Part shown: piece after piece, positions 13,811 to 63,785 of the stretch
Layout of the letters: every line of letters starts with the position of its first letter
How positions within the stretch are numbered: position 1 is the first letter of the stretch
Virus record (IMG/VR): IMGVR_UViG_3300030329_004647
Span: 62,001 to 126,000 of that record
DNA from: a virus
Length of the DNA: 64,000 bases
Strand: one strand, 5' to 3'
Made by a program: the position numbers and the translations under genes
Notes under the pieces: model-generated
What the model was told of the DNA's origin: nothing
The model's input: only the letters and a program-made list of their open reading frames with translations
The model's database searches: none

Positions 13811-16282
13811 CTACATTAAAAAAGGTTTGTCATAAGGAGTTCTAGGCATTTTATCTAACACCTCACCTAACTCTACTTTTTTTATAATTCTTAAAGTTTT
13901 TAAAAGAGAATCAGGAGTAACTGATATGGTATCTATTCCCTCCCTCACCAAAAACTCTGCAAAATCTGGAAAATCTGAAGGACCTTGACCACATATACCA
14001 ACCTTAGTGTTGGTTTTTTTAGCTGACTTAATTAAAAATTTAATAGAATCTTTAACAGCTTCATTTCTTTCATCATATAAGTTAGCTACTAACGCGGAAT
14101 CTCTATCTAAACCTAAAGTAAGTTGGGTTAAGTCATTAGAACCTATTGAAAAACCATCTATATGTTTAGCAAATTTTTCAGCTAATAAAATATTTGACGG
14201 TAGTTCCGCCATAAGATATATTTCTAATTCATTTTCGCCTCTTTTTAAACCATATTCCTCCATTACCTCGTAAACTTTATTTAATTCGTCTACTGTACGA
14301 CAAAAAGGAATCATAACTACCACATTTTTAAGACCCATTTTTTCTCTCACTCTTTTTATAGCTTTACACTCCATACCAAAAGCCTCTTTGTATTCTTCTG
14401 AGTAATATCTAGAAGCACCCCTCCAACCAATCATTGGATTTTCCTCTACAGGTTCGAAGTGTTCTCCACCAAGTAAATTTCTATATTCGTTAGTTTTAAA
14501 ATCAGATAACCTAACTATAACTTTTTCTGGATAAAAAGAAGACGCGATTTTTGCAATACCATAAGATAGTCTTTTAATGAAAAAAGTTTCTTCATCCACA
14601 TAACCTCGAGTTAATTCATCTATTTGTGAGGATAATTTATCATCACCTAACTCTTTATGTCTTAACAAAGCTAATGGATGAGCTTGAATATAATTGTTTA
14701 TGATAAATTCTTCTCTAGCAAGCCCAACCCCCTTATGTGGCAAATTGGAAAACTTAAAAGCTAAATCAGGTGAGGCTACATTTAACATTATAGGTGTGTT
14801 TACCTTAGGAAGGTCTTGTAAGCTAGTCTCTACTTTTTTATAAGGTATCTCACCTTCATATACTTTACCCATATCCCCACTTGCACAACTTACAGTAACT
14901 AAGTCACCATCATTCAGTATTTCTGTAGCATTACCAGTTCCTACTATCGCGGGTACACCCATTTCTCTAGCGACAATAGCCGCGTGACAGGTTCTACCTC
15001 CTTTATTTGTTACAATAGCACCAGCTTTTTTCATTATAGGTTCCCAGTCAGGGTCAGTCATTTCAGTGACTAAAATATCACCATCTTTAAAATCTAATCC
15101 ATCAGCACTACCATCTCTACCATCTATAGAAAACATAATACTCACATTACCTACACCTATACCATCACCCACAGCAATTCCTTGTATTAGTTTTGTATTT
15201 TTAAAATCTTCTTCTAATTTATATTCTACAATCTTATCTTTTTCTTTTTGAGAATGTATTGTTTCTGGTCTAGCTTGAAGAATGTACAACTCATTAGTTA
15301 ATCCGTCTATTCCCCACTCCACATCCATAGGACACCAGTCGTTTTTTCTTTCAGAGTAGTAACGCTCTATTAATGTTACCCACTCAGCTATTTTTAAAAC
15401 TTCTTTGTCTGTAATACAAAATTCATTTTGTTGATAATCTTGTATGTTAACTATTTTTGTCATCTTTCCAGGGTCATCACCATATACCATTTTTTTATCT
15501 TTAACACCCATTCTTTTTTCGATAATAGAACTATATCCTTGTTCTAAAGTAGGTTTGAATACCATAAACTCATCAGGTGAAATAAAACCCTGGACAACCA
15601 TTTCCCCAAGTCCATATGAACCATTTATTAACACAGCGTCCTTAAAACCACTTTCAGTATCTATAGAAAAAGCTACACCTGAAGAACCCAAATCAGTTCT
15701 AACCATTTTTTGTACACATACTGATAAAGCAACATCAAAATGACTAAAACCAAAAGTATCCCTATATGAAATAGCTCTGTCCGTAAACAACGAAGCAAAA
15801 CAATTCCTAACAGACTCTAATAAAGATTCTGGACCCCTAACATTTAGATACGTTTCCTGTTGTCCTGCAAATGAAGCGTCTGGTAAGTCTTCCGCTGTAG
15901 CTGAAGACCTTACAGCTACATCAGTCATTTCTTGACCATACACTTTTGACATTTTATTGTATTTTTCTCTAACCTCATCTTTTAAGTCTTGAGGCCATTT
16001 ACCATTTCTAATAATTTGCCTAACCTCGGTACCTACCTTTCTGAGAGATACGACATTGTCTTTTTCGATTGAATTTATAAGTGTTTCAATTAATGTTTTT
16101 AATCCGTTATAACGCAAAAACTCCCAGTAAGCTTCTGAAGTTATAGCGAAACCGTCAGGAATTCTTATTCCGACAGATTTTAAGTTTTGAATCATTTCAC
16201 CTAAAGAGGCGTTTTTACCACCAACTAAAGGTAAATCATCCATAGAAACTTTATTTAAATCTACAGTATATTGTTTTTTCAT
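13811..16282 (-). CDS. ppsA: Phosphoenolpyruvate synthase
   Basis: 823 residues, complete (E. coli PpsA is about 790). Makes PEP from pyruvate and ATP, releasing AMP and phosphate. N-terminal ATP-binding part: VGGKNASLGEM (20-30), VRSSATAEDLPDASFAGQQE (124-143). Swivelling phosphohistidine domain: GGRTCHAAIVAREMG with the catalytic His at 433. C-terminal PEP/pyruvate TIM barrel: GSNDLTQLTLG (714-724) and CGQGPSD (764-770). All key residues are intact, so an active enzyme is expected. As a phage gene it is an auxiliary metabolic gene, perhaps redirecting pyruvate toward PEP. Upstream on the other strand lies thioredoxin. Confidence 0.95.
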   Translation of the reverse strand: MKKQYTVDLNKVSMDDLPLVGGKNASLGEMIQNLKSVGIRIPDGFAITSEAYWEFLRYNGLKTLIETLINSIEKDNVVSLRKVGTEVRQIIRNGKWPQDLKDEVREKYNKMSKVYGQEMTDVAVRSSATAEDLPDASFAGQQETYLNVRGPESLLESVRNCFASLFTDRAISYRDTFGFSHFDVALSVCVQKMVRTDLGSSGVAFSIDTESGFKDAVLINGSYGLGEMVVQGFISPDEFMVFKPTLEQGYSSIIEKRMGVKDKKMVYGDDPGKMTKIVNIQDYQQNEFCITDKEVLKIAEWVTLIERYYSERKNDWCPMDVEWGIDGLTNELYILQARPETIHSQKEKDKIVEYKLEEDFKNTKLIQGIAVGDGIGVGNVSIMFSIDGRDGSADGLDFKDGDILVTEMTDPDWEPIMKKAGAIVTNKGGRTCHAAIVAREMGVPAIVGTGNATEILNDGDLVTVSCASGDMGKVYEGEIPYKKVETSLQDLPKVNTPIMLNVASPDLAFKFSNLPHKGVGLAREEFIINNYIQAHPLALLRHKELGDDKLSSQIDELTRGYVDEETFFIKRLSYGIAKIASSFYPEKVIVRLSDFKTNEYRNLLGGEHFEPVEENPMIGWRGASRYYSEEYKEAFGMECKAIKRVREKMGLKNVVVMIPFCRTVDELNKVYEVMEEYGLKRGENELEIYLMAELPSNILLAEKFAKHIDGFSIGSNDLTQLTLGLDRDSALVANLYDERNEAVKDSIKFLIKSAKKTNTKVGICGQGPSDFPDFAEFLVREGIDTISVTPDSLLKTLRIIKKVELGEVLDKMPRTPYDKPFLM

Positions 16283-16997: not shown

Positions 16998-17294
16998 ATG
17001 ATACTAACACAAAAAGAAAAAAATAGAATTAGAAAATTACATAAAGAACAGTCTATTGTTAAAGAAGCAACTGCGTCTGATAATAGTGGAAGTTATGAAG
17101 CTCCATTAACACATGAAAGAGAACACGATTTAGTGGGGATAGAGGTAATAGACACAGCACCTACTATTGATGTGGTTAGTATAGTCGATGATAGTGACGA
17201 AGGATTGGAAATTGATTTAGATAGTTTATTTGACGAACTAGCTATGTTTAATGTTGAGGACGACTCTAGTGATTTTTTTCCAGAAGACCTTTAG
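16998..17294 (+). CDS. Leader-bearing protein mimicking the mature capsid protein N-terminus
   Basis: 98 residues. Leader MILTQKEKNRIRKLHKEQSI, then VKE (21-23). Directly after it come ATASDNSGSYEAP, nearly the same as ATAADNSGSFET after I-N-E(60) in the major capsid protein, where T4-type maturation would cut. The remaining 60 residues are very acidic. I infer that the prohead protease cuts both at the same kind of site. A displaced capsid gene fragment is unlikely because only this dozen residues is shared. Overlaps the convergent NUDIX gene by 29 nt. Confidence 0.7.
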   Translation: MILTQKEKNRIRKLHKEQSIVKEATASDNSGSYEAPLTHEREHDLVGIEVIDTAPTIDVVSIVDDSDEGLEIDLDSLFDELAMFNVEDDSSDFFPEDL

Positions 17295-36674: not shown

Positions 36675-38699
36675 TTACTTTTGTTTAATTTTAACTTTGT
36701 TTGTTTTTTTGTTGTAGTTAACAAAATAAGAATTTCCTTCAGTAACAGTACCTTTTAATATTTCTTCTGAGATTAAATCTTCTAAAATTGTTTGGATAGC
36801 TCTCTGTAAAGGTCTCGCTCCATACTTTTCATCATAACCCTCTTCAGAAATGTGTTTAATCACTGTAGGTCCAAAACTAAAATCGTAATCTTTTTCTTTT
36901 AATCTAATTTTTAATTCAGCTAATTGAATTTTTACAATTTTTTGTAAGTCCACAACTTTAAGTGACTCAAATATAACAACCTCATCTATTCTATTAAGAA
37001 ATTCAGGATTGAACGTGTTCCTCAGAGACTTAGAAATTAAAGACCTCATATGTTCTTCTTTGTGTTGTTCTTTAGCTTTAGTAGAAAAACCAATTCCTTC
37101 TCCCCAGTCTTGTACTTTTTTAACCCCTATATTAGATGTCATAATAATTAGAGTATTTTTAAAATTTATTTTTCTTCCACTTGAATCTGTAATATAACCA
37201 TCATCTAAAATTTGTAACATTAGATTAAAAATATCAGGATGAGCCTTTTCAACCTCATCAAATAAAATTAAAGAATAAGGATTATTACGAACTTTTTCTG
37301 TTAGTTGTCCTCCTTCATTATAACCCACATATCCAGGAGGAGAACCGATTAGTCTAGATAAAGCGTGTTTTTCTTGGAATTCAGACATATCTACTCTAAT
37401 TAATGATTCTTCAGAACCAAATACATGGGAAGACAGTTGTTTAGCTAAATAAGTTTTACCAACACCAGTAGGCCCTAAAAATATAAAAGAACCTATAGGT
37501 CTATTAGTATCCTTTATACCCACACTATTACGTTTAATAGCTTTAGATATTTTACTAACAGCAGTTTCTTGTCCAATAACCACACCTCTTAATTTATCCT
37601 CAAGATTAAGAAGTTCTTTTTTCTCCCCAATATCTAACCTACTTAATGGTATTTTAGTTATATCCGAAACAACCTCCATAATACTATCAACTGTTATTTC
37701 TGTTCTTTTTAAGTCTTGGTCTTTTTCCCACTTTAATTTTAATTTTTCTAAATCTGTAACTAATTTTCGCTCACTATCTCTTATGTCAGCAGCTTTTTCA
37801 TAATTTTGAGTCTTTACTACTTTCATTTTTTCTTCTTTAAGTTTTGCTATTTTTGTTTTTAGATTTTCTATTGATTTAGGGTACTTTACCTCTATTTGAA
37901 ATTTAGCACCAACTTCGTCTAGGATATCTATAGCTTTATCAGGAAACTGACGTTCATTAATATATCTTTCCGCAAATTTTACACAACTCTCTAAAGCTTC
38001 TTCTGAATAATTTACCTTATGATGAGATTCGTACTTATGTTTTATCTGCTTCAATATTGTAAGAGTTTCTTCGGTACTTGTTGGAGCTATACTCACTTTT
38101 TGAAATCTTCTTTCTAAAGCTCCATCTTTCTCAACCTTTTCTCTATACTCGTTTAAGGTTGTAGCCCCTATACATTGTACTTCACCTCTCGCTAAAGCGG
38201 GTTTAAAAATATTAGCAGCGTCTAAAGAACCAGACGAATTTCCAGTACCCACAACAGTGTGCAACTCATCAATAAAAATAATAACATCTTTATTATTTTT
38301 TAGTTCATCTATTACAGCTTTCATTCTTTCCTCAAACTGACCCCTGTACTTAGTTCCAGCCACTAGTGATGTTAACTCTAATGAAACTATTCTTTTATCT
38401 AACAATGGTCTAGGACCCTCACCCCTACTTAACATAATAGACAAACCCTCTACTATTGCTGTTTTTCCACAACCAGGTTCACCTATTAAAACAGGATTGT
38501 TCTTTTTTCTACGACACAACGTTTGTGCTATTCTTTTAATTTCTTTTTTTCTACCAATAACTGGGTCTAATTCACCTGCTCTTGCTAATGCTGTTAAATC
38601 TGTAGAAAAATTATCCAGAATGGGAGTTCCTTCTGGTTGTATTTCATCTCTATTTTCGTCTCTTCTAGGTTTATCTGACGCTTCTTTAAAATCTGACAT
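36675..38699 (-). CDS. clpC: ClpC-like AAA+ unfoldase lacking the N domain
   Basis: 674 residues with two complete AAA+ modules. Module 1: GEPGCGKT (73-80), DELH (144-147), GATTLNEYR, R-fingers. A UVR-type linker (about 296-322, QNYEKAADIRDSER) identifies the ClpC branch. Module 2: GPTGVGKT (409-416), DEVEKAHPDI (481-490), GSPPGYVGY pore loop. The loop at 535-538 reads GIGF, the IGF-type tripeptide that docks ClpP. The N-terminal Clp repeat domain (about 140 residues) is absent. No ClpP is in the window, so it probably uses host ClpP; without the N domain its substrate choice will differ. Confidence 0.93.
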   Translation of the reverse strand: MSDFKEASDKPRRDENRDEIQPEGTPILDNFSTDLTALARAGELDPVIGRKKEIKRIAQTLCRRKKNNPVLIGEPGCGKTAIVEGLSIMLSRGEGPRPLLDKRIVSLELTSLVAGTKYRGQFEERMKAVIDELKNNKDVIIFIDELHTVVGTGNSSGSLDAANIFKPALARGEVQCIGATTLNEYREKVEKDGALERRFQKVSIAPTSTEETLTILKQIKHKYESHHKVNYSEEALESCVKFAERYINERQFPDKAIDILDEVGAKFQIEVKYPKSIENLKTKIAKLKEEKMKVVKTQNYEKAADIRDSERKLVTDLEKLKLKWEKDQDLKRTEITVDSIMEVVSDITKIPLSRLDIGEKKELLNLEDKLRGVVIGQETAVSKISKAIKRNSVGIKDTNRPIGSFIFLGPTGVGKTYLAKQLSSHVFGSEESLIRVDMSEFQEKHALSRLIGSPPGYVGYNEGGQLTEKVRNNPYSLILFDEVEKAHPDIFNLMLQILDDGYITDSSGRKINFKNTLIIMTSNIGVKKVQDWGEGIGFSTKAKEQHKEEHMRSLISKSLRNTFNPEFLNRIDEVVIFESLKVVDLQKIVKIQLAELKIRLKEKDYDFSFGPTVIKHISEEGYDEKYGARPLQRAIQTILEDLISEEILKGTVTEGNSYFVNYNKKTNKVKIKQK

Positions 38700-39040: not shown

Positions 39041-40897
39041 ATGGGAAAAGTAATTGGAATCGATTTAGGGACCACAAATTCTTGTGTATCAGTAGTAGAA
39101 GCTGGAAGTCCTGTAATCATAGTAAATTCAGAGGGTAAAAGAACCACGCCTTCTGTAGTAGCATTTAAAGATGGTGATAGAGTAGTTGGTGAACCAGCAA
39201 AAAGACAAGCGGTATCAAATCCGGATAAAACAATATATTCAGTAAAAAGATTTATAGGTAGTAAGTTTAGTGAAATTAGTGACGAATCTAAAAAAATGGC
39301 TTATAAGGTAAATAAAGGGAAAGGTAATGTTGTTAATATTAAAGTTGATGACAAGTCTTACATCCCCCAAGAAATATCTGCTGTTGTTTTACAAAATCTA
39401 AAAAAAACAGCTGAAGAATACCTAGGGTCTAAAGTAAAACAAGCTGTTATAACTGTACCCGCGTATTTTAATGACGCACAAAGACAAGCTACAAAAGAAG
39501 CGGGAGAAATAGCAGGTTTAGAGGTTCTTAGAATAATTAACGAACCGACCGCTGCGGCATTAGCTTACGGTATAGATGAAAAAAATGAAAAAACTATTGC
39601 CGTCTACGATTTAGGTGGTGGTACTTTTGATATTTCTATATTAGAAATATCTGATGGACTTTTCGAAGTTAAGTCTACAAATGGAGACACACAATTAGGT
39701 GGTGATAATTTTGATGAAGTAATTATTGATTGGTTATTATCGGAATTTAAAACAGAGTCTGGTGTTGATTTAACAAAAGACGCTTCCGCTTTACAAAGAT
39801 TAAGAGAAGCTTCTGAAAAAGCAAAAGTAGAATTGTCTACCGCGAGCACAACAGAAATTAATTTACCTTATTTAACAGCTGATAATACAGGTCCAAAACA
39901 CTTAGTTAGAAATTTAACTAAAGCAAAGTTCCAATCAATGATTGACGACCTAATTAAAAAAAGTATTAGCCCTTGTAGGAAAGCTTTAAAAGACGCTGGA
40001 CTTAAAGTTACAGATATAGATGAAGTTTTATTGGTTGGTGGTTCTACAAGAATCCCAGCAATTCAAGAAGCAGTTGAAAAGTTTTTTAAACAAAAACCGT
40101 CTAAAGGTGTAAATCCAGATGAGGTGGTAGCTATGGGAGCAGCAATCCAAGGAGGCGTGTTAGCTGGAGAGGTTAAAGATGTTTTACTATTAGATGTTAC
40201 ACCTCTTTCACTAGGTATTGAAACTATGGGTGGTGTTATGACAAAACTAATAGATTCCAACACTACTATTCCTACTAGTAAATCAGAAGTGTTTTCTACA
40301 GCTTCAAATAATCAACCAGCAGTAGACATACACGTAGTTCAAGGTGAAAGACCTATGGCTGATGACAATAGAACACTTGGAAGATTTCAACTAACTGACC
40401 TACCACCAGCACCTAGAGGGGTTCCTCAAATTGAGGTTACTTTTGATATTGACGCAAATGGTATTATCAATGTTTCAGCAAAAGATAAAGGAACAGGTAA
40501 AATACAAAATATTAAAATTGAGTCTGGCAGTTCATTGTCTGAAGAAGAAATTAATAAAATGAAAACAGAAGCTGAACAAAACGCTAAAGAAGACGCTATT
40601 AAAAAAGATAAAGTAGAAAAACTTAATACGGCAGACGCGACAATATTCCAAACAGAAAAACAAATAAAAGAGTTTGGAGATAAACTTGACGACACAGATA
40701 AATCAAGATTAGAAAATACAATTAAAGAGTTAGACGAGGTAAGAAAAAATGAGGACCTTGAAGGTATTGATGATTTAACTGAAAAAATAAATGAAATGTG
40801 GCAAGAAATTAGTACAAAACTATACCAACAAACCGACCAACCAGAACCAGAGACCAATGATGGTCCTTCAGATGTAAAATTTGAAGAAGTTAAGTAG
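39041..40897 (+). CDS. dnaK: Chaperone DnaK (Hsp70)
   Basis: 618 residues, complete. Nucleotide-binding domain starts [17 protein letters not shown] and has [46 protein letters not shown] and [13 protein letters not shown]. The substrate domain has [14 protein letters not shown] and the NNQPAV...QGERP segment; helical lid and DVKFEEVK end are present. ATP-driven folding chaperone. No DnaJ or GrpE in the window, so host cochaperones would be needed. Phage copies are rare; head assembly on T4-like phages uses host chaperones, which gives it a plausible role. Confidence 0.96.
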
Positions 40898-50804: not shown

Positions 50805-52640
50805 ATGGCAGATAAACTAACAATATTTCAGAGACTATCCAAATTATTTGGACCAGAAGGACCAAGGGTAGATAGACCTTCCTTCCAACAGTACAAATTT
50901 GATAAAAAAGATTTATTAAAAACTACTTCTAAAGCAGAGTTTGACCAAGAAAAACTACAAATACAACAAACTCTTTATTTAGCAAATCAGTGGACAAAAA
51001 TTGATAATGAATTATATACACAATCTATATATTATGAACCTACAAGATTAGCTTCATATTATGACTACGAGTCAATGGAATTTACACCAGAAATATCAGC
51101 AGCTTTAGATATTTTTGCTGAAGAATCTACCACACCATCAGAAGAAGGTTATATATTAACTTTATATTCGGAATCCGCAAGAATAAAATCTATATTAGCG
51201 GACCTTTTTAATAATATTTTAGATGTTGATACAAATTTACAAATGTGGTGTAGAAACATGTGTAAATATGGTGACGATTTTGTGTATTTAAAAATAGACC
51301 CAGAAAAAGGCGTTATAGGATGTTTTCAACTACCTAATATTGAAATAGAGAGAGTAGAAACTGGTAACTATCCTAATGTTCCAGCTACAACATCTCCAGA
51401 TGGTGAAAAAGAAAGAAAGTTAAGATTTCATTGGAAGGAAAAAAATATGGAATTTAATTCTTGGGAAATGGCTCACTTTAGATTATTAGGTGATGACAGA
51501 AGATTACCTTACGGTACATCTATGTTGGAAAAAGCTAGAAGAACCTGGAAACAATTATTATTAGCGGAAGACGCTATGTTGGTTTATAGAACATCAAGAG
51601 CTCCTGAACGAAGAGTATTTAAGGTATTCGTAGGTAATATGGATGACAAAGATGTAGAAGCGTATATCAATAGAGTAGCAAACAAATTTAAAAGAGACCC
51701 CGTTGTGGACCCTCAAAATGGTAATGTGGACATGAGATACAATCAAATGGCAGTAGACCAAGATTTTTTCATCCCAGTAAGAGACGCAGCTGCTCCTAAT
51801 CCGATAGAGACTTTACCTGGAGCTACAAATCTAAGTGAAATAGCTGATATAGAATACATCCAAAAAAAGTTACTAGCGGCTTTAAGAATTCCTAAAGCAT
51901 TTTTAGGTTTTGAAGAGGTTGTTGGTGAAGGTAAAAATCTATCTTTATTAGATATAAGATTTGCTCGTACTATAAACAGAATCCAGAAATCTTTAATACA
52001 AGAACTGAACAAAATAGCTATTATCCATTTATATATTTTAGGATTTGAAGATGAACTTGATAATTTTGCTTTAGGACTAACCAATCCATCTACTCAAGCA
52101 GAATTACTAAAAGTAGAACAATGGCAAACAAAAATTACTTTATATAAAGACGCTGTTAGTGACCCTGGTAACGGTATACAACCAACCTCAAGTACTTGGG
52201 CAAAGAAACATGTTTTAGGTATGAGTGATGAAGAAATAAAATTAGATTTACAACAACAAAGATTTGAAAAAGCAATCGCTAAAGAGTTGGAGACAACAGG
52301 AGACATCATTAAGAAAACAGGAGTATTCAATAATATAGATAAATTATATGGGGACATAGAACAGACTGAAAAAGAAGGGGGTGAAACTGCTGGTGAAGGT
52401 GGTGATGAATTTGCTACTGGTGCAGAAGGTTTACCTGGTGGTGAAGAAACTAGTCCACCACCTGCAGCGGAAGAAAGTCCTGAACCAGCCGCTGAAGGGT
52501 ACAAGGTTGAGAAAGATTTACCACTAATTCTAGAAAATAAAGGGGTAGAGTTGCCTAATCTAGACGAACTTACACAAGAAAATAATAAAAAGATTAAGGA
52601 CATACAAGAAGATATAGACGCTTTACTTGATGATGACTAA
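50805..52640 (+). CDS. Portal protein (gp20-like)
   Basis: 611 residues. Shows the gp20 core: SAALDIFAEESTTPSEEG, MCKYGDDFVYLKI, LPNIEIERVETG, RAPERRVFKVFVGNM, MRYNQMAVDQDFFIPVRD, and LPGATNLSEIADIEYIQKKL followed by ALRIPKAFLGFE. Forms the 12-mer through which DNA enters and leaves the head. The C-terminal 120 residues (Gly/Glu/Pro-rich, then a helix) are an extension not typical of T4. Confidence 0.93.
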   Translation: MADKLTIFQRLSKLFGPEGPRVDRPSFQQYKFDKKDLLKTTSKAEFDQEKLQIQQTLYLANQWTKIDNELYTQSIYYEPTRLASYYDYESMEFTPEISAALDIFAEESTTPSEEGYILTLYSESARIKSILADLFNNILDVDTNLQMWCRNMCKYGDDFVYLKIDPEKGVIGCFQLPNIEIERVETGNYPNVPATTSPDGEKERKLRFHWKEKNMEFNSWEMAHFRLLGDDRRLPYGTSMLEKARRTWKQLLLAEDAMLVYRTSRAPERRVFKVFVGNMDDKDVEAYINRVANKFKRDPVVDPQNGNVDMRYNQMAVDQDFFIPVRDAAAPNPIETLPGATNLSEIADIEYIQKKLLAALRIPKAFLGFEEVVGEGKNLSLLDIRFARTINRIQKSLIQELNKIAIIHLYILGFEDELDNFALGLTNPSTQAELLKVEQWQTKITLYKDAVSDPGNGIQPTSSTWAKKHVLGMSDEEIKLDLQQQRFEKAIAKELETTGDIIKKTGVFNNIDKLYGDIEQTEKEGGETAGEGGDEFATGAEGLPGGEETSPPPAAEESPEPAAEGYKVEKDLPLILENKGVELPNLDELTQENNKKIKDIQEDIDALLDDD

Positions 52641-54580: not shown

Positions 54581-54588
54581 TATTTATT
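54581..54588 (+). promoter_or_regulatory. Late promoter TATTTATT
   Basis: 13 nt before ATG 54602; overlaps the TTG at 54587, which is therefore not the start. Confidence 0.5.
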
Positions 54589-54601
54589 GAAAAAGAATTA
54601 T

Positions 54602-55303
54602 ATGAAGATTTTAGGACCCAAAGATATTGGCCACGGATTATTAATAGAATATGATGCTGGACATCTCTCACCACAAGACAATGTTAAAGTAATTAAAGAG
54701 ATGAAAAACTCTGAGTTTTCTGATGAAGTGTATATGTATTGTATCTTACAAAAATATGGAACACCAAATAGAAACGGGAGAGTATACCCAAAAAGAATAT
54801 TAGAAAGAGAAAATGATAGATACCAAGACGTTATTAAAAGAGGAAGTGCTATTTCCGAACTAAACCACCCAGAATCTTCACTAATTGATTTAGAAAGAAC
54901 TTCTCATGTTATCACAGAAACTTTTTGGGATGGTAACAAACTAATGGGAAGACTAAAATTGTTAACAACTCCAGGATACCACCAAAAAGGAATAGTATCA
55001 TCTATGGGGGATATCGCAGCTAATTTATTAAGACAAGGAATCACTTTAGGTATTTCATCTAGAGGAGTTGGTTCACTAAAGAAAAGCGGAGAACACAATG
55101 AGGTACAAGATGATTTTGAATTGATATGTTTTGACCTTGTTTCATCACCATCTACACCAGGCTCTTATCTATTTAAAGACATGAGTGAAGTTGATAATTA
55201 TGATGAAGTATTAGAGACCGTAAAAGAAAAAGATTCATTCGACTCAAAAATAGATAGGTCGCTTTCTCTAATGGATAGATTAGATAACTTTCTTAATCAT
55301 TAA
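54602..55303 (+). CDS. Prohead maturation protease (gp21-like)
   Basis: 233 residues from ATG 54602. Serine protease of the T4 gp21/herpesvirus assemblin type: NRNGRVYPKRIL (56-67), SELNHPESS with catalytic His 89, and GISSRGVGSL with catalytic Ser at 152 or 153. Cuts scaffold, capsid protein and internal proteins, in T4 after (Leu/Ile)-x-Glu. Sits between virion genes and the scaffold gene. Its presence underlies the idea that the many hydrophobic-x-Glu leader ends are cleavage sites. Confidence 0.92.
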   Translation: MKILGPKDIGHGLLIEYDAGHLSPQDNVKVIKEMKNSEFSDEVYMYCILQKYGTPNRNGRVYPKRILERENDRYQDVIKRGSAISELNHPESSLIDLERTSHVITETFWDGNKLMGRLKLLTTPGYHQKGIVSSMGDIAANLLRQGITLGISSRGVGSLKKSGEHNEVQDDFELICFDLVSSPSTPGSYLFKDMSEVDNYDEVLETVKEKDSFDSKIDRSLSLMDRLDNFLNH

Positions 55304-55353
55304 AAAATTACTTCTATTAATTCATTAACACTAACTTTTTTAGAAAATAAATG

Positions 55354-55361
55354 TATTTATA
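55354..55361 (+). promoter_or_regulatory. Late promoter TATTTATA
   Basis: 40 nt before the scaffold ATG at 55402. Confidence 0.5.
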
Positions 55362-55401
55362 GAAGCATAAACTGTATAAACTAACATAAAAACGAAAGTA
55401 T

Positions 55402-56823
55402 ATGTCAAAAGAATCTTTAATAGAACAAGCACTGCTCGAGGCTGAACAGTTGGAAAATACTATGAGGTCTAACGCAAAAGAAATACTTGCTTCAACAATG
55501 AAGGAAGAAATTGGAGAGTTAGTACAAGAATCGTTAGCTGAGAAAGACGATTACCTTAAGGAGCAAACAGAAGAGGACATTGAAGACGAGACTTTAGATT
55601 TTGAAGGGTCAGATGATGACGCTGAAGAAATGGAAATGTCTGTCGAAATTCCTGATTTAGAAGATGAGATGGAGGACGATGAACTCGCACCTCTTGATTT
55701 AACCTCAGCAACTGACGACGAAGTCATAAAAGTATTTAAAGCCATGGGTGATGAAGATGGTATCATTGTTAAAAAAGACGAAGATGAAATTTCATTACAA
55801 GATGGTGAAGATGAGTACTTAATAAAATTAGAAGAAAACAAAAATATGAAAACAAAAAAATCTAATTTAAAAGAAATGGAAAAAGAAATGGAAGTTGACG
55901 AATTAATGATGGATGAGGAATCACCAGAAACTGATGAAACAACTGAAATGGAAGAAGAAGTTATGTATGAAATCGAATTATCTGATGAAGATGAGGATAA
56001 ATCAGAAGAAACTAAAGAAGACGCACACGAAGAAGAGATGGAAGAAGGTCACATGCACCACAAATTTAAGCAAGGTTACGACGCTAGACAAGATGACTCA
56101 CTGGGAGATTTAGATGGACCAGAAAGTAGTTATTCACAATCTTTTGCAGACCGTAGACGTGAAAGAGAAGGTATGAGAAAATCTGCCAGAAGAACTCCAG
56201 ACATGTTAAACGCGGGTAAAAAAGAAGTGGGTGAAATGGTTCGCCAAAATAACCTAGGTCAAAAAGTCCATGCTGGTAACAGAAGTAATTCTTACAACAA
56301 AGCTGCTAGAAAAAAATCTGGAATTCATTTACCAGAATCTAGAAGAAAGAAAGCTAGAATTTCTGAAAGAGCTAGAAAGGTTGCACAAAAATCTTCAGTA
56401 TCTAAAAACTACGGTCAACTTAAAGAAGAAATTACTGGATTAAAATCTAAGAATTTTGAATATAAGAAGGCTTTATCGTCATTTAGGGACAAATTAAACG
56501 AGGTAGGAGTATTCAATTCCAACTTAGCTTACGCAACTAGATTGTTCACTGAACATTCTACAACTAAACAGGAGAAGATTAATATTCTTAAAAGATTTGA
56601 CAACGTCCAATCTTTAAAAGAATCTAAATCACTCTATAAGGTAATCAAAGAGGAGTTATCGACTGTTAAATCTCCGAAAACTAAAAAAACAATTTCGGAA
56701 GCAGTTGAAAAACGAATCAACAAATCCCCAAGAAGCGGAAGTAAGAGTAAACTAACTGAAAGTAAAGTTTACGAAAACCCACAATTCTCAAGGATTAAAG
56801 ACTTAATTAATAAAATAAACTAA
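55402..56823 (+). CDS. Prohead core/scaffold protein (gp22-like)
   Basis: 473 residues. Residues 1-215 are extremely acidic (e.g. DIEDETLDFEGSDDDAEEME), 225-320 basic (RRREREGMRKSARR; ARKKSGIH), and the C-terminal part 325-473 is helical and Lys-rich with SFRDKLNEVGVFNSNLAYAT, which resembles the core-protein helix of T4-like cyanophages. Many hydrophobic-x-Glu sites would allow digestion by the protease encoded just upstream. Followed after 14 nt by the capsid gene. Confidence 0.85.
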   Translation: MSKESLIEQALLEAEQLENTMRSNAKEILASTMKEEIGELVQESLAEKDDYLKEQTEEDIEDETLDFEGSDDDAEEMEMSVEIPDLEDEMEDDELAPLDLTSATDDEVIKVFKAMGDEDGIIVKKDEDEISLQDGEDEYLIKLEENKNMKTKKSNLKEMEKEMEVDELMMDEESPETDETTEMEEEVMYEIELSDEDEDKSEETKEDAHEEEMEEGHMHHKFKQGYDARQDDSLGDLDGPESSYSQSFADRRREREGMRKSARRTPDMLNAGKKEVGEMVRQNNLGQKVHAGNRSNSYNKAARKKSGIHLPESRRKKARISERARKVAQKSSVSKNYGQLKEEITGLKSKNFEYKKALSSFRDKLNEVGVFNSNLAYATRLFTEHSTTKQEKINILKRFDNVQSLKESKSLYKVIKEELSTVKSPKTKKTISEAVEKRINKSPRSGSKSKLTESKVYENPQFSRIKDLINKIN

Positions 56824-56837
56824 AAAAATAAAAAAAC

Positions 56838-58670
56838 ATGGGAGCATTATTAGAATCCGGAATGGTTGGTAACATTGGGTTAAAACACCTAAAAGTTATC
56901 AAAGAGGATACAATTAATAAATGGGACAAATTAGGTTTCCTTGATGGCCTTAAAGGTCATGGAAGAGAAAACATTGCTCAGCTTTTTGAAAATCAGGCAA
57001 CTCATTTAATCAATGAGGCGACTGCAGCTGACAACTCAGGTTCTTTCGAAACTGTAGTTTTCCCTATTATTAGAAGAGTATTCTCAAAATTATTAGCTAA
57101 CGAAATCGTATCTGTACAGGCAATGAACTTACCAATTGGTAAATTATTCTACTTCGTACCAAAAGTATCAAGTAGAGTTGGTGAGGGTGGTATGTATGAA
57201 GGTTTCGCTCCATTTGGAGCACCAGGTGCACCGGCAACACAAACGCCAAGTTCACCTACATCAGCTACAACAATAAACTTATATGACAACTTCTACGCAA
57301 CTAACGCACCAATGGGTGCTGAAGATGGTCTTTATGACATCTCAAAAGGTTCGTACTCAGGTTATATCACAACTAATCTACAAGTTATGGACTGGAACGC
57401 TTCAGCTCGTACTTTAGGTTATGCTGCGACTAACTCTACAACTGTAACGTCATTAACATCAACAACTGATTGTTTAAAATCTGTGATTATTGGAGTTACT
57501 GGATTCCAGTCAACAGGTGAAGGTAAATTAATCGGACCGATGGGTAACGAAATAGATACTGAAGATTTCTTATCTTCTTTAACTTTAATTACTGAAAACG
57601 CTACAACTTGTAAGTCAGGTTCAACTAACTATAACGCTGGTGACAACATGTTATTCAGAGTTGTTACTCAAAAATACGGTAGGTCAATTGCGAACCCAAC
57701 AAGTTCGAAAACATCTACAGCTTTCCCTGGTGGAGACTTTGACAGTATTTGTGATGTAACAGGTACAATTTACTTAGAGGCTGACCTTTCGTGTCCAGCT
57801 TGTATTAATTGTGACTCTGTAGACGGATATGTTTGTTCATACTACGCAAATCGTGAGTTCCAAAATGAAACATCACCATTTAGTGCAGCGTGGAGAGTTT
57901 ACAAAGACCTAGAATTTGAAGAAAAAATGGGTGAAGTTTCTTTCGACCTTGAATCTGTTACAGTTTCGGTTACTGAAAGAAAATTAAGAGCTCAATGGTC
58001 ACCAGAGCTTGCACAAGACGTGTCAGCATTCCATAATATCGACGCTGAAGCTGAGTTAACTGCTTTACTTTCTGAAGAAGTTGCTGCTGAAATCGATAGA
58101 GAAATCTTAAGAGACCTTAGAAAAGGAGCAGCTTGGGATTTAAGATGGGATTACAATGGATGGAAGAGATTCCAATCAGGTCAAGCACCATATACTCAAA
58201 AAGACTGGAATCAAACGTTAATCACTGCGGTTAACCAAATTTCAGCTCAGATTCACAAATCTACATTGAGAGGTGGAGCTAACTGGATTGTTTGTTCTTC
58301 TGAGGTATCTGCAATATTTGATGACTTGGAGTACTTCCACGTGTCAAATGCAGCACCAGACCAAGACCAATACAACATGGGTATTGAAAAAGTTGGAACT
58401 CTAGGAGGTAGATATACTGTATATAGAGACCCTTATTTCCCACCTAACCAATTATTACTTGGTCACAAGGGAACGTCATTACTTGACACAGGGTATGTTT
58501 ACGCACCGTATGTACCGTTACAATTAACACCAACAATGTATAATCCATTTAACTTTACACCAATCAAGGGTATCATGACTAGATACGCTAAGAAAATGGT
58601 TAACAACCGTTTCTATGGTAGAGTTACTATCGATGGAGTTAAAACATTCGATGTTAAAGAGTTAAGATAA
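56838..58670 (+). CDS. Major capsid protein (gp23-like)
   Basis: 610 residues. N-terminal propeptide 1-60 (FENQ at 50-53 as in T4 gp23), ending I-N-E 58-60, the expected protease site; the mature protein would start ATAADNSGSFET. HK97-fold signatures of gp23: LRAQWSPELAQDVSAFHNID, AEAELTALLSEEVAAEIDRE, GGRYTVYRDPYFP, YAPYVPLQLTP, GIMTRYAKK. An insertion at about 200-340 with Cys pairs (CPACINCDS) is larger than in T4 and may form a surface domain. Abundant protein, and codon use shows more C-ending codons (AAC, TTC) than neighbours. Confidence 0.95.
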   Translation: MGALLESGMVGNIGLKHLKVIKEDTINKWDKLGFLDGLKGHGRENIAQLFENQATHLINEATAADNSGSFETVVFPIIRRVFSKLLANEIVSVQAMNLPIGKLFYFVPKVSSRVGEGGMYEGFAPFGAPGAPATQTPSSPTSATTINLYDNFYATNAPMGAEDGLYDISKGSYSGYITTNLQVMDWNASARTLGYAATNSTTVTSLTSTTDCLKSVIIGVTGFQSTGEGKLIGPMGNEIDTEDFLSSLTLITENATTCKSGSTNYNAGDNMLFRVVTQKYGRSIANPTSSKTSTAFPGGDFDSICDVTGTIYLEADLSCPACINCDSVDGYVCSYYANREFQNETSPFSAAWRVYKDLEFEEKMGEVSFDLESVTVSVTERKLRAQWSPELAQDVSAFHNIDAEAELTALLSEEVAAEIDREILRDLRKGAAWDLRWDYNGWKRFQSGQAPYTQKDWNQTLITAVNQISAQIHKSTLRGGANWIVCSSEVSAIFDDLEYFHVSNAAPDQDQYNMGIEKVGTLGGRYTVYRDPYFPPNQLLLGHKGTSLLDTGYVYAPYVPLQLTPTMYNPFNFTPIKGIMTRYAKKMVNNRFYGRVTIDGVKTFDVKELR

Positions 58671-58691: not shown

Positions 58692-58720
58692 AAAAACCCC
58701 TCTTCGGAGGGGTTTTTTTT
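58692..58720 (+). terminator. Strong terminator after capsid gene
   Basis: AAAAACCCCTC-TTCG-GAGGGGTTTTT, UUCG tetraloop, T8 tail. Confidence 0.92.
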
Positions 58721-58733
58721 ATGCATCTTAAAG

Positions 58734-58759: not shown

Positions 58760-61327
58760 ATGCCACAATTTAATATATCATCCGAAGAAAGGAATAGAAT
58801 TAGAGGTTTACACATTACAGAATCTAAAGATAAAAGAATCACTTCAGTCTTAAATGAAGCTAAGGCTTTAGAAGGTTGGTTCGGAAAAATGTTTGGTGGG
58901 AAAAAAAGAAAAGAAGACATATACAACATTCTTAAAGCCGGTGTACAAATTGGTAGTCCCCCACTCTATTTAGAAGATAGAAAAGAAAACCCTCCATATT
59001 ATACTGAAGAAGAAATTAAAAGATTCGCTAATTTCATGAATAAGTTAGATAGAGTTTTTGTTAATGAAAAAAAGGTAATAGAACTATTAAGAACAGGTGT
59101 GGGATTAGGACTAGAGGAATTGGATATATTAACAAGGATTTTATACGCGTCATCTACTGACCCAGAAAAACCACAAAATTTTACTGACGTGTTGGTGGCA
59201 TCAGGAGCATTTAATGAAAGAGAAAGTTACAATCTAGATAGAATATTAGATACTAATCTATCAGATTTAATGAAAAAAACAAAAAAACAAGATATTAAGA
59301 AACGAGACTGTATCGATACAAATCCATTTGATAAAGAGAATGAACCAAGAGAGTGGGCATGGTGTGACAACAAACTTAACCCAGAGGGTGATGTGCAAGA
59401 AACAGAAGATAGTTACGATTATCAGTTAAGTGAAGTTAATAGAATACGCGAGATAATGGGCCTTAAAATATTGACGGAACAAAAAGTAGGTAGTGTTATT
59501 ATGGTAGATGGGAGAGAAATGGAAGTTGTAGATTATATAAAACAAGAATTACCACCAATAAACGTAGGACAACAATTTGGGTCTGGACTGTATAATGTGA
59601 GTGGTGAGGTTAAAAAATCTTTAGATGGTCTAGTTAATAAAATGAAAAATTTCTTTAATAGAAAAGAAGTACAGGGAATAGTTTTTGATATAGACCTAGA
59701 AGGTGGAGCTTCACTAGTTCCAATCTCAGATGCGTTAGCAAGAAAATACGGTATAAGTACTAGTCTGTCTGATGCAGATAGAAATAAGTGGTTAGCTGGA
59801 AAAAGAGCTTCAGAAGTTAAAAAATATTTGGAAGCACAATTAGGTCAACTAGGAAACGTACAAATACCAGAACCAACAGTTACATTAGGTACAACAAAAT
59901 GGGATAAAAATAAAGGAGTTAATCACAAAGACTATACAGAAGAACAGTTTATGAATATTACTGTTAAAGCTGCGGGTAAAAGACAAGTATTAGAGGCTTT
60001 ACCAGCATTCTGTGAAAAAGGATTTGAACCAGAACAGGGAGGATTAGGTGACCCAAAAAGAGCATATAAGGTTTATAAAGGAAGAGGAAAAAAATTAAAT
60101 TTAGGTGCGGGAGAAGGTAAAATATGTTTATCATTTGACGCATTAACCGTTCCAGATATGTTTGAATTAACCTATAACGGAAAAACATATAGAAGTATGA
60201 ACTCAAAGACAGGTAAAGCTGGATTCATATCAGGTAAGTATGATGAGATATCTGAAGAAGAGTTAGATAAATTTACAGCTATGTTACCCGAAATACAAGA
60301 TGAAATAGCTAAATTAACTGGTGATATACAATTAGCACAAGACGCTTTAGAGTCTGTAGGGCCTGAACAAGAAGCAAAATTAGAAGAAATACTCCTAAAA
60401 CAACAAGAAGAATTAGAAAAAAGTATAGAAGATACCAACAGAAAAATGAAAAAGTATGGGTATAACTTATCAATACCAGTAAAAAATCATAGAAGTAGAA
60501 AAAAATGGGATGATTATATTATGCATTATGGCGACCCTAATACAGGATACCCAAATGCTGTAACACCTAATTGGTATTGGGAAGAAGGTCAATATACGAT
60601 AGATGACACTCCTTTCGCTGGACCTGGTAGTGATAAAAGACCCGAAGAATTTTTTAATATGGCCGACGAAGGAGAAGTAAATGGTGAGTGGTTTAATCGT
60701 TTCTTTAACAAATATAGATATGATAACTCTAAAAAAATTAAAAGAAGTACAGGGTTTAAAACATTGTGGGCAAATAGACCAACTAATAAAGATTGGAAAA
60801 AAGATGATGTTGCAGCCTTTTTCCTTGGTATGAGAAGATTAGAAAAACAACTATTTAGAAATCAAGACGCAAAAAGAGACGAACTAGCTAAGTCTATTAA
60901 AAAAATGAAAAGAGATTACGAAAATAGAATTGAAAACTTATCTAGTAATATTGAAAAAGAAACTCGAAGATTACAAAATGAGTTAAATAAAAATATTAAA
61001 ACACTTAATGATTCTAAAGGAGAAGCTGAACTGTCTAAGAAAATGACAGAGTATAAACTAAGAACAGGTACTAAAGGAATGTACAAGTTTGATGAGTTAT
61101 TAAAAGAAATATTAGCTGATTCGTACGGTGGTAGAAAAAATGTTCCAGATATTATAGGACCTAAAGGTACTATTACTTTTGATAAAGTATTAGGGAAAAA
61201 TGAAGCTTATCTACAAGTTATAGCTCCTATAGGTGGTACATTATGGGCGGTACAAGTAGGTTGTGGTGACAAATGTAAGGGATTAGTTGATAATCCAGTT
61301 ACATATGATAGGGGAACACAAGCTTAA
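58760..61327 (+). CDS. Large protein with an N-terminal and a second internal leader
   Basis: 855 residues from ATG 58760. Leader 1 MPQFNISSEERNRIRGLHIT ends ITE (19-21). At about 222-241 a second full leader occurs, QLSEVNRIREIMGLKILTEQ, like the starts of 61945-63204 and 24140-26836. It looks like a precursor of two products: residues 22-220 and 242-855. The second part has mixed alpha/beta and a long coiled coil (about 510-560 and 690-760). No enzyme motif recognised. Ends CGDKCKGLVDNPVTYDRGTQ. Confidence 0.75.
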   Translation: MPQFNISSEERNRIRGLHITESKDKRITSVLNEAKALEGWFGKMFGGKKRKEDIYNILKAGVQIGSPPLYLEDRKENPPYYTEEEIKRFANFMNKLDRVFVNEKKVIELLRTGVGLGLEELDILTRILYASSTDPEKPQNFTDVLVASGAFNERESYNLDRILDTNLSDLMKKTKKQDIKKRDCIDTNPFDKENEPREWAWCDNKLNPEGDVQETEDSYDYQLSEVNRIREIMGLKILTEQKVGSVIMVDGREMEVVDYIKQELPPINVGQQFGSGLYNVSGEVKKSLDGLVNKMKNFFNRKEVQGIVFDIDLEGGASLVPISDALARKYGISTSLSDADRNKWLAGKRASEVKKYLEAQLGQLGNVQIPEPTVTLGTTKWDKNKGVNHKDYTEEQFMNITVKAAGKRQVLEALPAFCEKGFEPEQGGLGDPKRAYKVYKGRGKKLNLGAGEGKICLSFDALTVPDMFELTYNGKTYRSMNSKTGKAGFISGKYDEISEEELDKFTAMLPEIQDEIAKLTGDIQLAQDALESVGPEQEAKLEEILLKQQEELEKSIEDTNRKMKKYGYNLSIPVKNHRSRKKWDDYIMHYGDPNTGYPNAVTPNWYWEEGQYTIDDTPFAGPGSDKRPEEFFNMADEGEVNGEWFNRFFNKYRYDNSKKIKRSTGFKTLWANRPTNKDWKKDDVAAFFLGMRRLEKQLFRNQDAKRDELAKSIKKMKRDYENRIENLSSNIEKETRRLQNELNKNIKTLNDSKGEAELSKKMTEYKLRTGTKGMYKFDELLKEILADSYGGRKNVPDIIGPKGTITFDKVLGKNEAYLQVIAPIGGTLWAVQVGCGDKCKGLVDNPVTYDRGTQA

Positions 61328-61851
61328 GGGTGAACCAAAATTAATACAGGGTAAGATGTTTGAGCGTAACGTGCTTGAATTACACTAACCGCTCCAATCG
61401 TTAAATTTCCACGACCCTCCAAATCAAATAACATAGCTTTTCTATGTCCTGGAGAATTAATCCAGTCATTAACTACTTGACGACATTCCTTTTCTAAATC
61501 AAGAGGCTCGTCAGTCCATGAATACAAAGGCAATCCAGCCATACATTCGGTACCCCAAGAATATGTACCACAATATTTTTTAATTCTCATTTGAGGGTCA
61601 TTTATTTCTTCATGTCCTTTTACATCAACAGTTTCACTATGTGAAAAATTTACTTCTTTATATGTCATGTAACTTGCGTGGTGATAAGCAGCTTTATAAG
61701 CGTCATTAGACCACTCTACGGCCTCCAAACCCTGTGATACCCTATATTCGTTTACCATTCTAAAAATAATTTGTTCTGCCTCACCTATACGTTGTTGTCC
61801 GTAAGAAGTAAAAGTTAAAATAGTAAGTAAGATTGTTATTAGTTTTTTCAT
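61324..61851 (-). CDS. Secreted CAP/SCP-domain protein
   Basis: 175 residues. Signal peptide MKKLITILLTILTFTSYGQQ, then a CAP fold: MVNEYRVSQGLEAVEWSNDA, AAYHHASYM, SHSE, and CRQVVNDWINSPGHRKAML. CAP proteins are extracellular; bacterial functions are mostly unknown. Paralogous in layout to 63201-63785. Host-type promoter directly before the ATG, so early expression; perhaps alters the host surface. Confidence 0.82.
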   Translation of the reverse strand: MKKLITILLTILTFTSYGQQRIGEAEQIIFRMVNEYRVSQGLEAVEWSNDAYKAAYHHASYMTYKEVNFSHSETVDVKGHEEINDPQMRIKKYCGTYSWGTECMAGLPLYSWTDEPLDLEKECRQVVNDWINSPGHRKAMLFDLEGRGNLTIGAVSVIQARYAQTSYPVLILVHP

Positions 61852-61944: not shown

Positions 61945-63204
61945 ATGAAGAGTAATTTATTATCTGAAATTAATCGTTTAAGGGGCATTATGGGTTTAAA
62001 GTTAATCCAAGAACAAGTCCAGTCACCACCTTATGACCTATATACCCAATGGGAAGGTTCTGGTGGAAAAGTTATAACATCTAAGGAATGGAGTGATAAA
62101 AAAATATTTAAAGCAGGTTTTATAAATTACATAGGTCCTTTTGGAGATAGAGGTTATGTTGTTTTAATGCCTGGTACAAAATATGTAGATGGAATTGGTG
62201 AGATATCTTCACCTGTTGTAAATTCTAAATACCCTCCTATCGGAGGAAATGTGGACAACCAATTATTTAAAATAGAAGATAGAAAATTTAGACCTGGTCA
62301 AAATAAAGTGTATGGGGGTGATTTGAAGTGGGCTGAAGGAAACCCACAAATTGACTTTATGAAATATCAAAATAACGATTTATGGGAGTTAGGCAGTCAA
62401 GCTAAAGCTTTACAATCTGATATGAATAGAGGTGGTGGTCAGACTAAAACTAGATTTCATTTTTTAGCTTACTCTCAAAGAACTAATGGTAACTTAAGAA
62501 TTCTAAACATAAATATTAGATTAAAAAACATAAAAGAATTAGAAGCAGAGGGTAAAACAGACAATACAAAAAAAGGTACTTTAAGCATTAACAATTATGT
62601 AAAACAACGTGGTGGTAATGCATGGCACTTAGAATATGGTTCAGCACCGTTAGCGACTTATGGACCTGGAAACATTAGTATAGAGGAAGATTTACCAGAA
62701 TTTGTTACCGACGAATACCAGTTTGATGCTGGTGAAAATTTTGATTTCGATTCTGCAGTTCTAACTCAATTAGCTAAAGACGCCATCAAAGAAAAAATTA
62801 TTGACGCTATAAATGAATTAGGAGAATATAAAAGTGCTTATTTAAAAGAATTAGGTAAAAAACCCGTAATAATCACAGCTTACTCTTCTATCGACGCAGA
62901 TTCTGAAACACCAGGTGGTGGTGGTGATTTTGGACCATGTCAAAGTATTAAAAAATCAGGAAAACGAAAAGATTATAATAAATGCCTTAGTCAATATAGA
63001 GCTAATACAGTTGTAAAACATCTCCAAGATAATTATTCGGATATATTTGGTAATGTTAAATTAAAAGGTATTGGAGGTGGTGAAAACCCATCTAAAAATA
63101 GTTGGAAACCAGGAAAAAAGAATCATGACTCTAAAACAACCCAAAAAGACCGTAAGTTTACAATTAAATTACCAGGATTTACTATACGAAGAAAAGTAGG
63201 TTAA
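61945..63204 (+). CDS. Leader-bearing protein with OmpA-like C-terminal domain
   Basis: 419 residues. Leader MKSNLLSEINRLRGIMGLKL, then IQE (21-23). Residues 24-250 are unrecognised, beta-rich. Residues about 265-405 resemble an OmpA-like peptidoglycan-binding domain: FDSAVLTQLAKDAIKEKI, VIITAYSSIDADSE, LSQYRANTVVKHL and a final KDRKFTIKL strand. An inserted Gly/Lys loop carries two Cys. If delivered with DNA it could bind the cell wall; a tail-associated wall anchor is the other option. Confidence 0.72.
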   Translation: MKSNLLSEINRLRGIMGLKLIQEQVQSPPYDLYTQWEGSGGKVITSKEWSDKKIFKAGFINYIGPFGDRGYVVLMPGTKYVDGIGEISSPVVNSKYPPIGGNVDNQLFKIEDRKFRPGQNKVYGGDLKWAEGNPQIDFMKYQNNDLWELGSQAKALQSDMNRGGGQTKTRFHFLAYSQRTNGNLRILNINIRLKNIKELEAEGKTDNTKKGTLSINNYVKQRGGNAWHLEYGSAPLATYGPGNISIEEDLPEFVTDEYQFDAGENFDFDSAVLTQLAKDAIKEKIIDAINELGEYKSAYLKELGKKPVIITAYSSIDADSETPGGGGDFGPCQSIKKSGKRKDYNKCLSQYRANTVVKHLQDNYSDIFGNVKLKGIGGGENPSKNSWKPGKKNHDSKTTQKDRKFTIKLPGFTIRRKVG

Positions 63205-63785
63205 TAAATGTAATTTCTTGATATTTGAAAGGAAGAGTATATAGCAAGATGTGTTTTACCCTTCCATGTGAATAAACCTAACTGAGTAGACCCAGAACCA
63301 ATACCCACAATACCATCCCCAACAGAAGCCCAGTTTTTTATGATAATTTGGTGCCCAGGAGAGTTGTCCCAAGAGTTAACTAAATAAGTAGCTAAGTCTT
63401 GGTAAGTGACAAATCTTTCAGAGGACACACATGTTAACATACTTACTTCTGAATATGCATCAACTTCATACTTTAATGTTTTATTTTGGTATTGTGATTG
63501 TATCTCATCATATACATCTACACTTATTTTATTTAATATATGTTTACCTTCAGGATGCCCAGCAGTTTGTTGTTCCACTAAAACACCTGTAATGTATGTA
63601 GATAAATTGTCGTGTAAAACATCAGAATAAACTAACTTTGGATTTCCGTACGATTCACGATAATCATTAATTTCTACAAATACTAAACTATCTATAAGTT
63701 CAGCATTAAAATTATTATAATCAATTACCTGTGAATAGGTTGTTAGTGTTATAAGAGTTAGTAATAATGTAATTAATTTTTTCAT
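63201..63785 (-). CDS. Secreted CAP-like protein, divergent paralogue
   Basis: 194 residues. Signal peptide MKKLITLLLTLITLTTYSQV, nearly the same as in 61324-61851. Weaker CAP pattern: VEINDYRESYGNPKLVYSDV, YLVNSWDNSPGHQIIIK, GIGSGSTQLGLFTW. Converges with the OmpA-like gene (4-nt overlap). Host-type promoter with 4-nt gap. Confidence 0.72.
   Translation of the reverse strand: MKKLITLLLTLITLTTYSQVIDYNNFNAELIDSLVFVEINDYRESYGNPKLVYSDVLHDNLSTYITGVLVEQQTAGHPEGKHILNKISVDVYDEIQSQYQNKTLKYEVDAYSEVSMLTCVSSERFVTYQDLATYLVNSWDNSPGHQIIIKNWASVGDGIVGIGSGSTQLGLFTWKGKTHLAIYSSFQISRNYIY

Follow-up and report, generated by a model that had tools for sequence, protein, structure and literature searches.

The open reading frame at 58760-61327 (+ strand), just downstream of the major capsid gene, raises the question of whether one phage gene can encode two head proteins, each behind its own leader, that the prohead protease then separates. 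It lies in a 64,000-nucleotide stretch (the window) that corresponds to positions 62001-126000 of a 232,028-base IMG/VR virus record. Read from the ATG at 58760 the product has 855 residues; an alternative upstream ATG at 58721, immediately behind a terminator-like hairpin, would give 868. A first-pass annotation had proposed that a leader pattern recurs inside the chain, and that the gene is either a virion polyprotein cut at that place or a fusion of two leader proteins. Our reading, to which we assign a probability of roughly 0.6, is that it encodes a head-cargo precursor in which two leader proteins are joined in frame, and which would be packaged whole and cut by the gp21-type protease at the internal leader.

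By its gp23 sequence the phage is T4-like: about half of gp23 aligns at 40-45% identity with the best matches, which include Flavobacterium phage immuto, Microcystis phage Mel-JY01 and an uncultured phage. From these matches and the A+T-rich starts without Shine-Dalgarno sequences we infer a Bacteroidota host. The gp21-type protease gene adjoins those of the scaffold and gp23 (Table 1), and gp23 has a conserved predicted cut site, LINE60/ATAADNSGSFE (a slash marks the cut here and below). Three terminator-like hairpins were found in the region against 3.4 expected by chance; the one listed in Table 1 is plausibly a terminator, judging from its place behind gp23. The slot just downstream of gp23 varies among relatives, in which it holds leader proteins, opposite-strand secreted-looking proteins or HNH-like genes (by eye); among deposited phages, no isolate encodes the slot protein of the window. 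Two small secreted-looking proteins are encoded on the minus strand between leader genes of the window (61324-61851 and 63201-63785), the first matching the CAP family (PF00188) with E = 9.8e-11 and the second weakly. The genes at 13811-16282, 39041-40897 and 36675-38699 resemble, by eye, phosphoenolpyruvate synthase/pyruvate phosphate dikinase, DnaK and a Clp ATPase, which are unusual for a phage.

Table 1. Features of the two-leader gene and its surroundings (window coordinates).
Feature	Position	Strand	Basis or remark
Prohead protease, gp21-like, Peptidase_S77, presumed cutter	54587..55303	+	Pfam PF03420 E=4.4e-25; PHROG head maturation protease E=6.1e-44
Scaffold, gp22 position	55402..56823	+	Between protease and gp23; conserved C-tail YENPQFSRIKDLINKIN
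Major capsid protein gp23	56838..58670	+	Pfam Gp23 E=5.4e-71
Terminator-like hairpin between gp23 and two-leader gene	58699..58720	+	Hairpin scan
N-terminal leader, class A, residues 1-33, MPQFNISSEERNRIRGLHITESKDKRITSVLNE	58760..58858	+	Predicted cuts after ITE21 and LNE33
N-half body, residues 34-221, no detectable relative	58859..59422	+	Profile, hhalign and database searches
Internal leader, class B, residues 222-241	59423..59482	+	Leader profiles above all shuffles; motif count
C-half body, OmpA-like leader protein with long insertion, residues 241-855	59480..61324	+	Alignment to stand-alone homologues
OmpA-like domain and following region, residues 261-475	59540..60184	+	Stand-alone-family profile, hhalign, Foldseek
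Long predicted helices, residues ~681-788	60800..61123	+	Model secondary structure; absent from stand-alone relatives (alignment gaps)
Next gene with a leader (class B); weak match to OmpA	61945..63204	+	ORF list, Pfam, leader profile

In T4, gp21 cuts after L/I-X-E and in this way removes the capsid targeting sequences of cargo proteins, which are a means by which varied proteins are packaged (PMC9026906). Across the record and all related loci (L numbers below), N-terminal leader copies that score above every shuffle numbered 51 in class A, 17 in class B, 95 in class C and 15 in class D. A [LIVM]xE motif lies within 25 residues of the core in all 41 distinct class A and B leaders, as against 29 of 151 body stretches, the leaders being related to one another rather than independent. 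Protease sites at the leader front also exceed the shuffled expectation (33 of 54 versus 16), which may reflect helix capping. The sequence behind the presumed cut in gp23 recurs in the class A leader protein 16998-17294 (IVKE/ATASDNSGSYE), so a cut at that place fits both proteins. In relatives, the N-terminus of an 'EATGSGNSG' family carries a gp23-like post-cut sequence as well.

In the scaffold, the C-terminal tail 'YENPQFxRMKDLMSKL' is strongly conserved (C-terminus of the window protein 55402-56823 and scaffolds of L016-L114) and resembles the class B leader core 'NRI[KR]xLMG' (hhalign 33.5%, single-comparison E = 4e-4); a search with the scaffold-tail profile retrieves no leaders. The leaders may mimic the docking tail of the scaffold, and that tail may represent the ancestral form of the leader helix. 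None of five leader strings occurred in the literature searched, which would be compatible with a role outside head targeting, for instance as a chaperone or secretion tag, but we consider this improbable in view of the site beside gp21-gp22-gp23, the [LI]xE ends and the post-cut sequence shared with gp23. A GTDE/GTNE domain, annexin-like by eye, recurs under different leader classes (L036_5151, L108_4341, L126_1477, L185_2590 and record 51752-52615); no Pfam annexin match was obtained among L108, L126 and L185. A class D leader protein at record 54728-56170, outside the window, resembles by eye an M23 peptidase joined to a lytic transglycosylase and is a possible head-packaged cell-wall enzyme.

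Residues 222-241 of the two-leader protein read QLSEVNRIREIMGLKILTEQ, exactly as the first-pass annotation gave them, and their leader character turned out to be stronger than first stated. On a class B profile built from five N-terminal leaders (window genes 61945, 3699, 24140 and 33971 plus L057), from which the internal site was left out, they score 16.4 bits, compared with 13.8 for the best of 25,820 shuffled proteins and about 5 bits for the next-best internal site among 1,291 real ORFs. With a rebuilt class B profile the site scores 13.9, while the best of 27,080 shuffled proteins reaches 11.8, and a leader-profile search of the 232-kb record returns the site with E = 8.7e-5. The site is not a copy of the chain's own N-terminal leader. 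It belongs to class B and most closely resembles the leader (MKSNLLSEINRLRGIMGLKLIQEQ) of the next leader gene, 61945-63204, whereas the N-terminal leader, ending ...EERNRIRGLHITESKDKRITSVLNEA, belongs to class A (41.9 bits, on a profile that had included that leader). The prohead-protease motif [L/I]xE stands at the end of both leaders of the chain. The predicted cut of the internal leader follows E240 (LTE/Q), and LSE225/V is a possible second site. By itself [LI]xE occurs in the chain about as often as expected (11 sites versus 10.9); followed by A, S or Q, it occurs in the whole chain only at 21, 33 and 240, all in leaders. The N-terminal leader and that of the record 51752-52615 protein share 68% identity over 34 residues, while the bodies have no detectable similarity, suggesting that leaders move between proteins.

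What follows the internal leader has a family of its own. Residues 222-855, leader included, align over most of their length with stand-alone single-leader genes of about 370-410 residues, and the alignment runs from the leader to a C-terminal block that matches in register, apart from an insertion of about 200 residues, many of them in predicted long helices. A profile of the stand-alone family made without leaders retrieves the window protein with E = 9.7e-22 (hhalign 98.6%). The members inspected consist of one leader and then the domain, and further members lie directly behind gp23 in L027, L030, L041, L050, L053, L061, L063, L065 and L081. The domain, modelled with a pLDDT of about 70-89, has an OmpA-like fold, matching OmpA C-terminal domains in Foldseek at E = 2e-4; of 10 family members, 6 match Pfam OmpA (PF00691) at E<=1, and the window protein falls below the Pfam cut-off. 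The helices at residues ~681-788 probably form a coiled coil, in a model whose pLDDT there is mostly 45-62 and below 50 at the end of the region. The class B leader protein L036_6389, OmpA-like by eye, was rejected as a C-half homologue (hhalign 0.3%; no Pfam OmpA match).

The N half has its own leader and no stop ahead of the second one. It had no significant relative by any method in IMG/VR, deposited phages or the related loci, nor did the whole 855-residue protein in IMG/VR or deposited phages, and its AlphaFold2 model (mean pLDDT 40) is not usable. L116 1492-1899 was considered as a stand-alone N-half gene and dismissed, the match being confined to the leader (bodies P = 0.19), as were the small proteins beside the slot (hhalign 3%) and the family with the GTD/GTNE domain, whose score was reached by 332 of 2,000 shuffles.

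Because the C half aligns with stand-alone single-leader genes that occupy the same place behind gp23, the gene is, from its sequence, best described as head-cargo proteins joined either by fusion or by a two-leader insertion. The earlier suggestion that two leader proteins were fused is thus well supported for the C half, whose homologues stand alone behind gp23; for the N half, the search for a separate matching gene that the suggestion called for found none. Joining would have been a small step, since class A and class B leader genes nearly abut in relatives: the class A gene precedes the class B gene with a 1-base overlap (TAATG) in L106, L108 and L109, the pair is separated by a 2-base gap in L036, and it is adjacent in L057. 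In-frame loss of the stop between such neighbours would produce the arrangement seen in the window. Within the OmpA-like family, two leaders are seen only in the window protein. The leader is of class A in its stand-alone relatives but of class B in the C half, so leaders must have been exchanged, or a cassette inserted, at some stage; insertion of a two-leader cassette into an OmpA-like gene is a possible alternative origin.

Internal leaders are not peculiar to this gene. There are at least eight other internal-leader joints in the clade, one of them in the window's own genome; for several, the downstream half also has stand-alone homologues, and several of the fused families stem from independent metagenomes. 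Using family labels coined from sequence features (X, MFFS, EGIFD, EAT), a class C leader connects X to MFFS in L050, L053, L137-L140 and L078/L095 and X to EGIFD in L213, the same EGIFD body following a different N part in L073. L183/L185 have the order leader, GTD domain, leader, MFFS, and the EAT family is extended behind its tail, with a class C leader, in L162, L171 and L211/L212. In the genome studied here, outside the window, residues 122-144 of the 218-residue product of record 174095-174751 form a class C leader inside the chain, KKVVKINESTLKRIVHRVMEETE. Most loci examined have MFFS as a gene of its own with one leader, L042 has a stand-alone EGIFD and L153 a stand-alone form of the partner found in L162, and the L214 EAT protein stops exactly at the leader while L211 runs on into a second protein. 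Between fused relatives, synonymous change in the internal leaders was greater than amino-acid change: dN was 0.02 and dS 0.92 in L183/L185, and 0.04-0.07 and 0.5-1.0, respectively, in L137/L139/L140, values that come from 19-24 codons only. Leader-like helices also occur at C-termini (L210, L214, L148, L152, L166, L032, L036_8484 and other EAT-family genes; for example KNESLKDLIKKILRESL, or KKIIRLTENDLIRIIKKIITEQ followed directly by the stop) and are possible packaging tags. Tentatively, and at somewhat less than even odds, the leader of this clade may be a position-independent cassette, that is, a short prohead-docking helix that ends in, and is often preceded by, a prohead-protease site and that can stand at the N-end, at the C-end or between proteins.

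The recurrence of such joints also bears on whether the window fusion is an artefact. An exact junction search in IMG/VR found no second contig, and the fusion therefore rests on a single metagenomic contig without a second copy of the junction. An assembly or sequencing error that joined two genes is nonetheless very improbable, as the frame stays open both before and after the junction, no Met stands immediately ahead of the leader, a single indel would break the frame, and analogous fusions are present in independent assemblies (L137-L140; L183 and L185).

Two proteins might also arise by an internal translation start instead of cutting, and elsewhere in the clade the sequences allow for it: a Met opens the internal leader in L078, L162, L171, L211 and L213 and stands two residues ahead of it in L183/L185, so separate initiation is possible there. 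No Met opens it in L050, L053, L073, record 174095 or the window. The window does have a GTG at 59393, ten codons ahead of the leader, but its 20 preceding bases have an A+T content of 55%, whereas the values for 45 starts begin at 60% and have a median of 85%, and there is no in-frame ATG between codon 171 and codon 233, the latter inside the leader. Internal initiation in the window is thus unlikely, and we regard an internal start as a quite improbable source of two proteins.

The motif, the neighbouring gp21-type protease and the recurrence of internal leaders in the clade make a virion polyprotein cut at the internal leader the most likely mechanism. As with the capsid targeting sequences of the T4 internal proteins, each leader would carry its protein into the prohead and end in a prohead-protease site ([L/I]xE). 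The uncut chain would enter the prohead whole, and the gp21-type protease would cut inside the head after LNE33 and LTE240, yielding an acidic product of about 24 kDa (residues 34-240, pI ~5) and a basic OmpA-like product of 69.7 kDa (residues 241-855, pI 8.6). The OmpA-like part would perhaps bind the host cell wall on entry. Retention of the internal leader as a cutting joint would allow such fusions to be tolerated.

Alternatively, the fusion or insertion may be real and the internal leader an uncut second targeting or docking helix, or a relic, in which case only the N-terminal leader would be removed and the mature protein would be about 94 kDa. [LI]xE is a weak motif, and in L214, L133 and the EAT family leader-like helices lie at C-termini with no second protein after them, so docking on the prohead may be due to the helix itself. 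We nevertheless find this rather unlikely: an [LIV]xE end is kept at nearly every joint, although profile detection favours such cases, and the window joint has LTE/Q, as in N-terminal class B leaders.

If polyprotein cutting at retained leaders is correct, head maturation proteases would also resolve cargo polyproteins, with internal or terminal leaders retained and probably cleavable. This would help explain how head-packaged proteins are acquired and swapped in these phages, and would allow virion cargo to be predicted by a simple sequence rule throughout a large clade of uncultured phages.

The closest parallels are in T4, where IPI-IPIII and Alt likewise combine a short N-terminal leader ending in L/I-X-E, varied cargo and a gp21-type protease (PMC9026906). 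The 855-residue protein shares sequence features of such cargo, having L/I-X-E leader ends (LNE33/A, ITE21/S), a leader shared with an unrelated protein and an encoded gp21-type protease, and at the level of the motif it also has the protease site between units (LTE240/Q) that characterizes a polyprotein. The likeness is one of layout and end motif, and here there are several leader classes on dozens of proteins, with leaders also internal or at the C-end, whereas capsid targeting sequences are N-terminal in the T4 literature, as far as the portion available to us describes them (PMC9026906). T4 gp22, gp67 and gp68 resemble our case in that one chain receives several prohead-protease cuts (PMC9026906), but those proteins are core parts removed as fragments, while here two whole cargo proteins, each with a leader, would be released. 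The inner-head proteins of phiKZ and SPN3US are similarly large-phage head cargo, processed by a diverged gp21-type protease; their long propeptides are cut several times and then discarded, and the available portions of the reports describe neither a second leader that is kept nor a second complete protein (PMC5694885, PMC10052503). Finally, the polyvalent proteins of phages and conjugative elements carry several functions per chain, are delivered with DNA and are thought to be separated by proteolysis (PMC5512222), often with metallopeptidase domains of their own, whereas in the two-leader protein leaders form the joints and cutting would fall to the prohead protease.
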